Below are positions 11,064-15,089 of a stretch of 32,287 nt of DNA, piece after piece. The notes beneath the pieces are model-generated. The model had not been told where the DNA came from. It saw only the letters and a program-made list of their open reading frames with translations, and made no database searches. The stretch is from the NCBI GenBank assembly GCA_013812905.1, contig JACCSP010000004.1:1-32287 (forward strand), written 5' to 3'. Position 1 is the first letter of the stretch, and each line of letters begins with the position of its first letter. Both the position numbers and the translations under genes were made by a program. This stretch comes from Pyrinomonadaceae bacterium. Its GTDB lineage: Bacteria > Acidobacteriota > Blastocatellia > Pyrinomonadales > Pyrinomonadaceae.

Positions 11064-14000
11064 ATGGAACCCAGACCTGAAACGAAGTCCAGACTCACAC
11101 TCGAGCAAGTGGCGGCGGTCGAAACACTTGACCGCCACGTCTCCGTTACAGCAGGTCCAGGCGCAGGCAAGACCACAGTTCTGGTCGGACGCTACCTCCA
11201 CATCCTGCGCGAAAACAAGAATCTCGACATCGATCAGATTGTCGCCATCACCTTCACTAATCGTGCCGCCAACGAAATGCGCGAACGGCTGCGCAAGCAG
11301 CTGGATGGAATCCTGCTGACCGCCGCCCCGGAAGAACGGAGGCGCTGGATGAGTTACAAGCGCACGCTCGACGGTGCAATCATTACTACGATTCACGGCT
11401 TCTGTTCTCGCCTGCTGCGCGAGTTCCCTGTCGAAGCGCGAGTAGATCCGCAGTTCATTCTGCTCGATGAGCACCAGGCGGCAACGCTCCTCGAGAATGC
11501 AGTCGAAGAGACTCTCACGGAGTTCATCAATTCTGGCCACGAAGCAATTTCGCGACTCACCGCAGGCGTCGGCCGAGGCCAACTCGCCGCGATGCTGGTC
11601 GAACTGTATCGGAAGGTCCGCGGCCAGGGACTTTTTTCCAAGTGGCTCCGCGAGCAGGCCGACCAGAGTCATTCGAGCTGGGAGGAGTATCGCGTGGCGT
11701 TTTCACAGGTAGAACGACTCGTGGAAACCCTGATCCGCGCGCGGGGTCTCCCTGATAGAGCCGAGGGCAAACGCATCGAGCTTCAACGAAGTTGGCCACG
11801 GCTGCGACCGCTGCTCCTTAATCCGCAATTGCCACTGGCGGATTACTGCAGAGAGGTTGTAGAGCTGAGAGATGCAGCAAGGCCCACCGCCGGGGGCCGC
11901 ATCAGCATTATAGTCAAAGAACTCGACGAGCTTTTCTGGGGCAAGACAAGAGAAAAGCCCTATGGCCAAATTCCGTCTCTGCGTTTTGATCTGGTGGCCA
12001 GAGAATATGCCTGCGAGGTGCTCAAAGTGGTGATTAGCATTGAAACCCGTCTGGAGGAAACGAAGCGACAACTGGCAGTGCTCGATTTTGACGATTTGCA
12101 AATCCGCGCGTTGCGTCTGCTGGAAAAGGACGAAGTGTTGTTGCGCGCCTCGCGCCGATACAAGTTCTTTCTGGTTGACGAGTTTCAGGACACAAACCCT
12201 TTGCAGCGCGATTTGATGAGCCGGCTCGCGCTCCAGAATCGCCATGATGCCAATCTGTTCATCGTCGGCGATCCGAAGCAATCGATCTATGGGTTCCGTG
12301 GCACTGACGTCGAAGTCTTTCGTGAAATGACTGAAGCTTTGGTAAGCGCCGGCGGAGTTGATTTGTCCCTGCGCACAAACTTCCGCAGCGAGCCGGAAAT
12401 AATAAACTTTTTCAATCTGCTTTTTGCGCGACTCTTTGAACCGAGTGAGGGGATTGCTCCAGCGGACTTGGGTGAGCTCGGTTACGTAAGACATGAAGCG
12501 AGCATACCCGGTCGTGAAAAGGAGGCCGCTGGGCCATTAGTCGAGTTGATGGTGGACACCCTAAGCGGCGACAAATCAGAACCGAAAGCGCAAAAACCGA
12601 ACCGGGAACGAGATGCCCAACAGCTGACGAAGCGGATTAACTCGCTGGTGGCTACCGGCACTGCCTTTGGCGACATTGCATTGCTTTTTCGCGCCATGAC
12701 TGATGCGCAGATTTACGAGTCAGCCTTCCGCCGCGCGAATATTCCCTATCAGACCGTGCTGGGCAGAGGATTCTACGAACGCCAGGAGATCATGGATCTA
12801 ATCCAACTCCTGCGTTTCCTTGATAATCGCACTGATGAGTTAGCTCTCGCGGCCGTTTTGCGGTCACCCCTCGTGGGCATCTCCGACAACGCCTTGCTTG
12901 CCCTGCGCCTCGCGCCCCGAATTGGCGAGACCCCCGAAGGCGAAGCGCCGCAGCCACGCTGGCGTCCACGCAAGTTGGTCCACGCTTTGCGTGAGCAGAA
13001 TGAAATCAATTTCATCGCGCCGGAGGATCGGGAGGCTCTCGATCGCGCAACAGCGTTCCTGAAACCCCTGATCGAAAAGCGAAATCGCTATCCGGTCGGC
13101 GATCTTCTGCGGCTCGCCGTTAAAAGTTCAGAGTATATGACGATCATCGCGGCAAATTTCGACGGGGCGCAGCGGATAGCAAACGTCGAGAAGCTTTTCA
13201 CTCTGGCAGAGCGATTTGAACGGTCCGGCGCGCACTTGATCCGAGACTTCGTTAAGTATGTTCACGACTTCGAAGCCATCGGCAGCCGCGAAAGTGAAGG
13301 TCAACTGGATGAAACCTCGAACGCCGTGAAGTTGATGTCGATCCATCAGGCGAAGGGTCTGGAATTTCCGATAGTCATCATTCCCGATCTGCAACGCATT
13401 CAGGCTCCAAAGGGCAACTGGTTTTCGCTCGACCGATATTTGGGGCTGACCTTAAAGGTGCCCAATGGCCGCGGCGAGCAAGTAAAGGGCGGGACGTTTG
13501 AGAAATTCAACGAGCGGGAAAAGCTACGGGAGCACTTTGAGAGCCTCCGTCTACTCTATGTAGCCGCTACCAGGGCGAAAAACCGCTTGATCCTTTCGGC
13601 GGCAACTGACGAGTTGAGTAAACTGGACTCCGGCCGCGACTGCTGGCTGAAGTGGATCTGGCAAGCACTGGGATTTCGACCGCGCGAGAGCGGAATCGTC
13701 GAACTCGCCGCGGGAGTGAAAGTGCAATTCACCATCAATCTTCCGAGCGAAGTGTTAAGCCCGTTAACGGGGTCGGTCGGGTCGGAGGCAGGCGCACAGG
13801 CGACTGATCTTGAGCAACCTCCCGACAACCTCTTTCCACTCTTGCGCTCGCTGCAACCGGAACGCGATCGGGCGGTCCACCGCTTCAGCGTCACCCAGTT
13901 GATTAACTACCAGCGCTGCCCTCGACAGTATTATTTCGATCGTCTCCTGCACGTGCCGGCAGCTGACGAAATGGGTGTCTGGAACGACGCCGAGGCTCCA

Positions 14001-15089
14001 GAGCCGCCGGCAAATCTGACCGCCACATTCAAAGGCGCTGTCATCCACCGCTTCTGTGAAACCTATTCACTGGGGGAGGAGGTGGAAGGGAGATTGCGGC
14101 ATAGCCTTGACGACGTGGTTGGCTCGCGCCCGGCAGAATTCGCCGAGCGTCTGCTCGATATCGGCACTGATGAAGCGTTAAAGGAGTTGTTACCTTTCGC
14201 TCGGAATTATCTTTCGAGCGATGTGTTTAAGAGAATTGAGAGAGCGAGAGAGGCGGCAGGAACTGTGCTCACCCCTGTTCCTGCGGCCAGTCCGGGTTTA
14301 TGGAGTGAACTTAATTTTCGTTTACGCCGTCCCTTCGGTATTCTGACCGGAACGATTGATAAGCTGTTGGTTTCAGCTTCCCCAAGTGGAAAGGGTTTTG
14401 ACATCGAAATCGTCGACTTCAAAACAAACCGCATTCGAAGTCGCCCCTCCAGTCAAGAAAATGCGTCAACCTCTTCTCTGGGACCGCATTCGGGCGGGGG
14501 CGCCGCCGGGGCAGCTCGGGGCCTCCAGCCCAGCGTCTCGGCGGGGGTTCAAGCCCCGCTGGGGCTTGGGTCCCGCCCTCCAAGCAGCGAAGCCACAACT
14601 GCCTTGAATGCCACCTCCGGAATGCAGGCGAGACGCGTGGGGTCCCAGCAGTCAGCGATGCAGTTCACGTTGGATTTCTCAGAATCGGAACCCGCACAGA
14701 AAAGGGCAATCACGACCAGTGAGTTCACCGCAAGCGCTTTACCCTCCCTGACAGATGAAATTCTGAGGGTTGCCTCCGACTATCAACTACAAATGCAGGC
14801 GTATGCTCTGGCCGTGCGGGAATTGATGCCGGATCTAGTGAATACTGGAAGCGAAATTAGAGTCACGCTTCATTTTCTCGACCCCGACGTGGAATCTCAT
14901 TTAACCGAAGATCTGCTGGAACTTAATGCATGCGCGCGCGCAATTGACCAGGCTTTTCTACAACTAATCTCTTCACGCGAGCCCGAGCATTTTCCGATAC
15001 GCGCGGCAACTCACTGCCGCATGTGCAACTTTTTACAAATCTGTGTCGGCGGACGTGAGTGGATTGCTGAACAAAAGATAGCGCCTTAG
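11064..15089 (+). CDS. addA: AddA-like UvrD-family helicase-nuclease
   Basis: This 1341-residue protein is a superfamily 1A helicase with a C-terminal RecB-like nuclease. Helicase motifs in order: AGPGAGKTT (Walker A, 30-38), ITFTNRAANEM (Ia), LVDEFQDTNPLQ (Walker B, Asp372/Glu373), GDPKQSIYGFRG (III), LRTNFRSEPEI (IV), MSIHQAKGLEFPIVIIPDL (V) and YVAATRAKNRLIL (VI). The nuclease domain has GTIDKLL (Asp1099), IVDFKTNR (Asp1118, Lys1120) and YQLQMQAY (1240-1247). Unusually for AddA, it also has Cys952 (QRCPRQYYF) and Cys1318-x2-Cys1321-x5-Cys1327, an AddB/Cas4-type Fe-S signature. A low-complexity insertion lies between Lys1120 and the QxxxY motif (see 14476-14590). The ATG at 11064 has only a weak SD. 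The 205 bases between addB and addA show no gene. Confidence 0.9.
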   Translation: MEPRPETKSRLTLEQVAAVETLDRHVSVTAGPGAGKTTVLVGRYLHILRENKNLDIDQIVAITFTNRAANEMRERLRKQLDGILLTAAPEERRRWMSYKRTLDGAIITTIHGFCSRLLREFPVEARVDPQFILLDEHQAATLLENAVEETLTEFINSGHEAISRLTAGVGRGQLAAMLVELYRKVRGQGLFSKWLREQADQSHSSWEEYRVAFSQVERLVETLIRARGLPDRAEGKRIELQRSWPRLRPLLLNPQLPLADYCREVVELRDAARPTAGGRISIIVKELDELFWGKTREKPYGQIPSLRFDLVAREYACEVLKVVISIETRLEETKRQLAVLDFDDLQIRALRLLEKDEVLLRASRRYKFFLVDEFQDTNPLQRDLMSRLALQNRHDANLFIVGDPKQSIYGFRGTDVEVFREMTEALVSAGGVDLSLRTNFRSEPEIINFFNLLFARLFEPSEGIAPADLGELGYVRHEASIPGREKEAAGPLVELMVDTLSGDKSEPKAQKPNRERDAQQLTKRINSLVATGTAFGDIALLFRAMTDAQIYESAFRRANIPYQTVLGRGFYERQEIMDLIQLLRFLDNRTDELALAAVLRSPLVGISDNALLALRLAPRIGETPEGEAPQPRWRPRKLVHALREQNEINFIAPEDREALDRATAFLKPLIEKRNRYPVGDLLRLAVKSSEYMTIIAANFDGAQRIANVEKLFTLAERFERSGAHLIRDFVKYVHDFEAIGSRESEGQLDETSNAVKLMSIHQAKGLEFPIVIIPDLQRIQAPKGNWFSLDRYLGLTLKVPNGRGEQVKGGTFEKFNEREKLREHFESLRLLYVAATRAKNRLILSAATDELSKLDSGRDCWLKWIWQALGFRPRESGIVELAAGVKVQFTINLPSEVLSPLTGSVGSEAGAQATDLEQPPDNLFPLLRSLQPERDRAVHRFSVTQLINYQRCPRQYYFDRLLHVPAADEMGVWNDAEAPEPPANLTATFKGAVIHRFCETYSLGEEVEGRLRHSLDDVVGSRPAEFAERLLDIGTDEALKELLPFARNYLSSDVFKRIERAREAAGTVLTPVPAASPGLWSELNFRLRRPFGILTGTIDKLLVSASPSGKGFDIEIVDFKTNRIRSRPSSQENASTSSLGPHSGGGAAGAARGLQPSVSAGVQAPLGLGSRPPSSEATTALNATSGMQARRVGSQQSAMQFTLDFSESEPAQKRAITTSEFTASALPSLTDEILRVASDYQLQMQAYALAVRELMPDLVNTGSEIRVTLHFLDPDVESHLTEDLLELNACARAIDQAFLQLISSREPEHFPIRAATHCRMCNFLQICVGGREWIAEQKIAP
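14476..14590. repeat. GC-rich palindromic element embedded in frame within addA
   Basis: This stretch has a base composition unlike the surrounding gene and contains nested inverted repeats. GCGGGG at 14541-14546 pairs with CCCCGC at 14554-14559 across a 7-base loop, and GGGACC at 14480-14485 pairs with GGTCCC at 14569-14574. It stays in frame and encodes a Gly/Ala/Pro/Ser-rich linker (about residues 1139-1176) within the AddA nuclease domain, after DFKTNR and before the QxxxY motif. It looks like a dispersed intergenic-type repeat that inserted into a tolerant loop. The further low-complexity stretch to about residue 1225 may be part of the same expansion. Confidence 0.6.

Follow-up and report, generated by a model that had tools for sequence, protein, structure and literature searches.

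Mobile hairpin repeats, one nested in another, as the probable source of the extra linker in an acidobacterial AddA nuclease domain

The AddA protein encoded in the window (the whole 32,287-nt stretch of DNA analysed here, from a soil acidobacterium of the Pyrinomonadaceae) carries an extra part in the linker of its nuclease domain. This extra part is very probably a mobile, hairpin-forming repeat that inserted in frame into a loop that was already disordered. The inserted DNA belongs to a dispersed repeat family, is present in some relatives and absent from others, is interrupted by a second repeat, keeps the reading frame, has counterparts inside other genes and falls in a region predicted to be disordered.

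Results

We identified the host open reading frame as AddA from its Pfam matches (UvrD-helicase, UvrD_C and PDDEXK_1); AddB lies directly upstream. A sequence-only reading of the same DNA had counted about 120 residues between Lys1120 of the DFK motif (codon 14421–14423) and the tyrosine of YQLQMQAY (Tyr1240, codon 14781–14783), and had called this gap unusually long. The count is accurate: there are 119 residues. The gap is indeed long, as AddAs elsewhere in the class, in other families, have 26–34 residues when counted from DFK through the YxxQ..Y motif, but only part of it needs a special explanation. Congeners without the repeat still have linkers of 54–76 residues, and AddAs of families f1 and f2 have linkers of 54–130 residues, all longer than in other families. 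By these sequence comparisons, roughly half of the 119-residue linker (about 60 residues) is ordinary for this family.

The linker is predicted to be disordered, as the sequence-only reading had proposed checking. In an AlphaFold2 model of the nuclease domain built from 12 sequences, pLDDT is around 30 in the linker (about 27–44 for residues 192–287 of the modelled domain) and 78–92 in the flanks. Within the disordered region, 12 nt downstream of the insertion, lies the conserved hexapeptide QFTLDF. The pattern Q-x-x-[FL]-x-F (QFTLDF, QFAFDF, QLSLDF) is present in all 17 long-linker AddAs and in none of the 8 with short linkers, at positions homologous to 14661–14678 in L005–L018, L127 and L128. 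We take this hexapeptide to resemble a bacterial sliding-clamp binding motif.

Table 1. Features of the AddA gene and of the insertion in its linker
Feature	Position	Strand	Description
addA gene	11064..15089	+	1341 aa; intact open frame; host of the insertion
Linker Lys1120–Tyr1240	14424..14780	+	119 residues; predicted disordered
fam1 palindromic element	14478..14648	+	171 nt = 57 in-frame codons; 93 nt without the nested block
fam1 left arm, outer part	14478..14489	+	CTGGGACCGCAT; matches repeat arm CTGGGACCGCRGGCGTCYCGCCYGC; unbroken in G012 and G007
Nested fam2-type block	14490..14567	-	78 nt, 26 codons; decayed; boundaries ± about 2 nt
fam1 left arm, inner part	14568..14582	+	GGGTCCCGCCCTCCA; from alignment to G012 and G007
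fam1 right arm	14624..14648	-	GCAGGCGAGACGCGTGGGGTCCCAG; 2 mismatches from genomic repeat consensus
Motif QFTLDF	14661..14678	+	Conserved; 12 nt downstream of the insertion, inside the disordered linker

The insertion consists of two elements, one inside the other (Table 1). The outer one belongs to a repeat family that we call fam1 and is delimited by an outer inverted repeat and by alignment to the relatives G002, G012 and G007; the inner one derives from a second family, fam2. The sequence-only reading had likened the GC-rich nested palindromes to an intergenic repeat that landed in frame; this is supported, but there are two elements where it had seen a single one. The palindromes are real and decayed (inverted repeats pair 14478–14488 with 14638–14648 and 14486–14501 with 14610–14625, among others), and GC content reaches 74% at 14460–14579 against about 47–64% in neighbouring 120-nt windows; the element, however, ends at 14648 and not at 14590.

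The fam1 right arm scores 42 against the repeat consensus, where the maximum of 300 shuffles is 24. The interrupted left arm taken alone does not rise above the shuffles (22 against the same null maximum of 24). The nested 78-nt block is shared with G002 and absent from G012 and G007. The G002 block scores 48 against the fam2 reverse complement (null maximum 30); the window copy scores 28 against a null maximum of 30 and folds no better than shuffled sequence (z −1.4). Because the copy in this genome (G000) has decayed, the identity of its left arm and nested block rests on the relatives, and the same decay explains why a repeat finder at default settings reported nothing at the AddA insertion. 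Two other candidates were rejected: an Rfam match of the region to a mascRNA-like family is sub-threshold (17.8 bits against a gathering cutoff of 42.5, E 1.7), and ARAGORN detects no tRNA at the tRNA-like T-arm in the GC-rich block.

Comparison of AddA among relatives, which the earlier reading had recommended, shows that the insertion varies in presence, length and sequence and that the nested element is cleanly present or absent. In G012 and G007, fam1 is present with an uninterrupted left arm. In G011, an independent 39-nt fam2 insertion sits in the fam1 right arm; the close relative G004 lacks it, and the peptide encoded by this nested fam2 is also found in the AddA of G014. The linker of G017 contains a repeat of an unrelated third family; its sister AA24 lacks this repeat, and one more copy lies at another place in the genome of G017. 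There is also a second site, in the helicase part of AddA, where G004 and G006 carry about 40–55 fam1-derived residues; this stretch is absent from G011, G014 and G012. The AddA tree resolves the sub-clades of the genus and leaves G000 on an open fork. From the shared position, it seems likely that fam1 entered the AddA linker only once. The linker has been hit repeatedly by separate repeat insertions.

Both families are dispersed. A DNA search of the own genome with the region gave one short extra match, on contig C160, inside a helicase gene; the palindrome there (CTGGGAGCGCAGGCGTCCCGCCTGC ... GCAGGCGAGACGCCTGCGGTTCCAG) was the route to the fam1 family. Each fam1 copy has two inverted arms of about 25 nt around a variable spacer, and most complete copies measure 79–150 nt. 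Copies were counted by pattern searches, and the genomes compared are metagenome-assembled (MAGs). The arm consensus CTGGGACCGCRGGCGTCYCGCCYGC has 7 matches in this genome at up to three mismatches; arms occur in 11 of 16 congeneric genomes, with as many as 76 matches per genome at up to two mismatches. The fam2 pattern (CACCCCAGC..GCTGGGGACCCC) occurs in 8 of the 16 congeners in up to 70 copies per genome, and its stem varies in a compensated fashion. Reversed control patterns of fam1 and fam2 gave no matches at all. In the phylum, fam1 is patchy (13 of 297 genomes at no more than one mismatch). Intact fam1 copies fold into strong hairpins (z −6 to −11). In G004 and G015, most repeat copies are intergenic. 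The search for copies in the host genome that the earlier reading had suggested thus found both families at other sites of this genome, and congeners contain them in the tens.

AddA is one of several coding hosts. In this genome, fam1 also lies in frame in an Lhr-type helicase gene, flanked by DEAD_assoc and WH3_Lhr, in an EgtB-like gene with matches to DinB_2 and FGE-sulfatase, and in a large redox-subunit-like open reading frame. In congeners, fam1 lies within the long frames of ThiC and of MutL, where it falls between the DNA_mis_repair and MutL_C domains, and fam2 within Ser/Thr kinase and hybrid histidine kinase frames; some of these intragenic examples are orthologous to each other and hence not independent. 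The frame used differs between hosts: AddA has LGPRASRP..RPRSQ where the helicase has AGSAGVPPAG..GETPAVPAG. The arms are stop-free in 4–6 of the six frames, mostly in all six, so that an insertion, provided its length is suitable, can be translated whichever way round it lies. Among fam1 copies whose flanks are both open for 100 codons or more, lengths leave a remainder of 0, 1 or 2 on division by three in 9, 2 and 1 cases; for all others the counts are 21, 16 and 17. Some of the nine copies are orthologous, so these counts lend support and do not amount to a clean test. In the MutL linker of G014 (L046, about position 1501), a fam1 arm adjoins a second repeat-like peptide, SPKSKVQSPTSNL.

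Measures of constraint rest on small counts. Against G002, dN/dS is 0.73 in the insert and 0.28 in the nuclease core. Against G012, it is 0.19 in the fam1 part and 0.17 in the core, with dS near saturation and only 31 codons compared. On these small counts, the insert would be under weaker constraint than the core in the first comparison and no different from it in the second.

Discussion

We propose that fam1 inserted in frame into the AddA linker, probably in some ancestral member of this Pyrinomonadaceae genus, and that fam2 would later have entered its left arm in the lineage of G000 and G002, adding 78 nt. The repeats were presumably moved by a transposase acting in trans. Selection would remove insertions that break the frame or land in folded parts; survivors would sit in disordered linkers and then decay by mutation, and the peptide that they encode may have little or no function.

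Could the whole linker be an ordinary family trait, its Gly/Ala/Ser/Pro-rich disorder typical of this AddA clade and its palindromes a by-product of GC-rich low complexity? The uniformly longer linkers of the f1 and f2 AddAs, with their conserved Q..[FL].F motif, are what such an account would expect, and we accept it for the remaining 60 or so residues. For the extra piece it is already contradicted and very improbable: the piece matches a repeat at unlinked sites, its presence varies between close relatives, an unrelated repeat occupies the same site in G017, and the reversed-pattern controls are empty. The pattern that the sequence-only reading had named as pointing to an ordinary linker, namely no repeat elsewhere together with conservation in all relatives, was looked for and did not appear. 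We also consider it improbable, if slightly less so, that the repeat peptides and QFTLDF were co-opted and selected for tuning AddA, by setting tether length or binding another protein, for example the sliding clamp. Several species of this genus have retained the insertion, and the clamp-motif-like hexapeptide lies close downstream, both of which are compatible with co-option; the inserted peptide is hypervariable, however, its dN/dS against G002 is 0.73, and related species have an intact AddA without it. The genomes being MAGs, palindromes might have caused chimeric joins that stitched the linker together. The start of contig G002:C52 (L004:1–280) is in fact a fold-back copy at the same AddA palindrome, itself likely an assembly or amplification artefact of the hairpin. 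An artefact is nevertheless extremely improbable as the source of the linker: the 1341-residue frame is intact, both flanks align to G012 and G007, and the element occupies the same place on contigs of several relatives, some longer than 100 kb (G014, G004).

A different question is what moves the repeats. They might be REP/REPIN elements mobilized by RAYT transposases: each fam1 copy is an inverted pair of arms, like a REP dimer, and 14 of the 16 congeneric genomes contain transposases of the Y1/RAYT type. We regard this as doubtful, since a fam1 arm lies near none of 30 RAYT loci and a fam2 copy near one of the 30 (up to three mismatches), the terminal GTAG tag is absent, and G015 has 64 fam1 arms and no Y1_Tnp match in a genome that is only 83% complete. 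In G006, 3 of 11 Y1_Tnp matches (contigs C103, C170 and C228) have a fam2 copy no more than about 1.3 kb away; this proximity is suggestive, and by a hand estimate over four genomes it is not clearly above expectation.

Whatever moves them, in-frame insertion of a mobile hairpin repeat has precedents. The classic coding palindromes are the RPEs of Rickettsia (Ogata 2000 and 2002, reviewed in PMC10969869), palindromes of about 100–150 bp that lie in frame within functionally unrelated genes and are compatible with the function of the proteins. The likeness to Rickettsia elements drawn by the sequence-only reading holds for the way in which the repeats work: fam1 and fam2 are palindromes of the same size order, in frame, in functionally unrelated genes. 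By frame use it does not extend to membership. The repeats are from another phylum, and as far as examined their sequence would differ. Moreover, fam1 encodes no single conserved peptide, since its AddA and Lhr-helicase copies use different frames; many copies are intergenic, and the elements nest in each other. By analogy, fam1 and fam2 are counterparts of RPEs, and their frame use sets them apart from that class. As with coding palindromes in general, they have copies at unlinked sites and keep the frame of genes whose relatives lack the insertion.

REPs tagged with GTAG or CGTC have been described inside DNA-repair genes, often as inverted pairs (Di Nocera 2013, PMC3733652), and Xanthomonas campestris and X. 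oryzae carry different REPs at about the same recB site (PMC3733652); in that paper, Acidobacteria come up solely in connection with RAYT genes that have long terminal inverted repeats on their flanks. The fam1 elements are likewise short palindromes that form inverted pairs and lie within genes for DNA repair. In contrast to GTAG-tagged REPs, their arm consensus contains no GTAG, they are different sequence families, and RAYT genes here are not flanked by them (0/30; 1/30 for fam2). In contrast to CGTC-tagged REPs, they have CGTC nowhere but within the paired arm, with no unpaired terminal CGTC. MITEs with intragenic copies, such as ERIC and RU elements, are non-autonomous, have inverted repeats and can fuse with host reading frames (Delihas 2007, PMC2759123). 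The fam1 elements have inverted arms; for fam1 and fam2 we found no parent insertion sequence among the Y1-type loci examined and saw no clear target-site duplication. REPs that lie in frame within repair genes have been published before, and the kind of event is therefore known. We found no description of fam1 or fam2 repeats in Acidobacteriota in the literature searched. Against that literature, three things appear to be new: the repeat families themselves, the phylum in which they occur, and the repeated use of the AddA linker with one element nested in another.

Coding palindromes have so far been regarded as an oddity, found mainly in Rickettsia and in a small number of REP-rich proteobacteria. 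In Acidobacteriota, coding genes have taken up in-frame copies of two abundant families and of a rarer third, with nesting and with repeated hits on a single place, and the before-and-after pairs offer a tractable series for mobile DNA becoming protein sequence. They also call for caution: linker peptides in proteins from acidobacterial MAGs may be translated repeats and not evolved domains. A broader proposal, which we think unlikely as a whole, is that unrelated, mutually nested mobile hairpin repeats land again and again in the AddA linker of Pyrinomonadaceae, because a disordered tether with a short conserved interaction motif would absorb any in-frame insertion. Together with Xanthomonas recB, the linkers of recombination nucleases might then receive coding palindromes quite generally, and the element might even gain from sitting in a gene for DNA-end processing.

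Two further observations concern AddA itself. Its C-terminal nuclease domain is 76% identical to that of G012 and a longer stretch of 600 residues 68.5% identical; the helicase part thus looks more divergent than the nuclease domain, and a mosaic gene is possible on these identities. Another loop of the nuclease domain, upstream of WSE, is also variable in AA24 (L127), G017 (L009) and G043 (L016), and peptides there, such as SKSQIPNSKS..IPNPQSVVPNPKS and NHASRITHHS, look like translations of other interspersed repeats.
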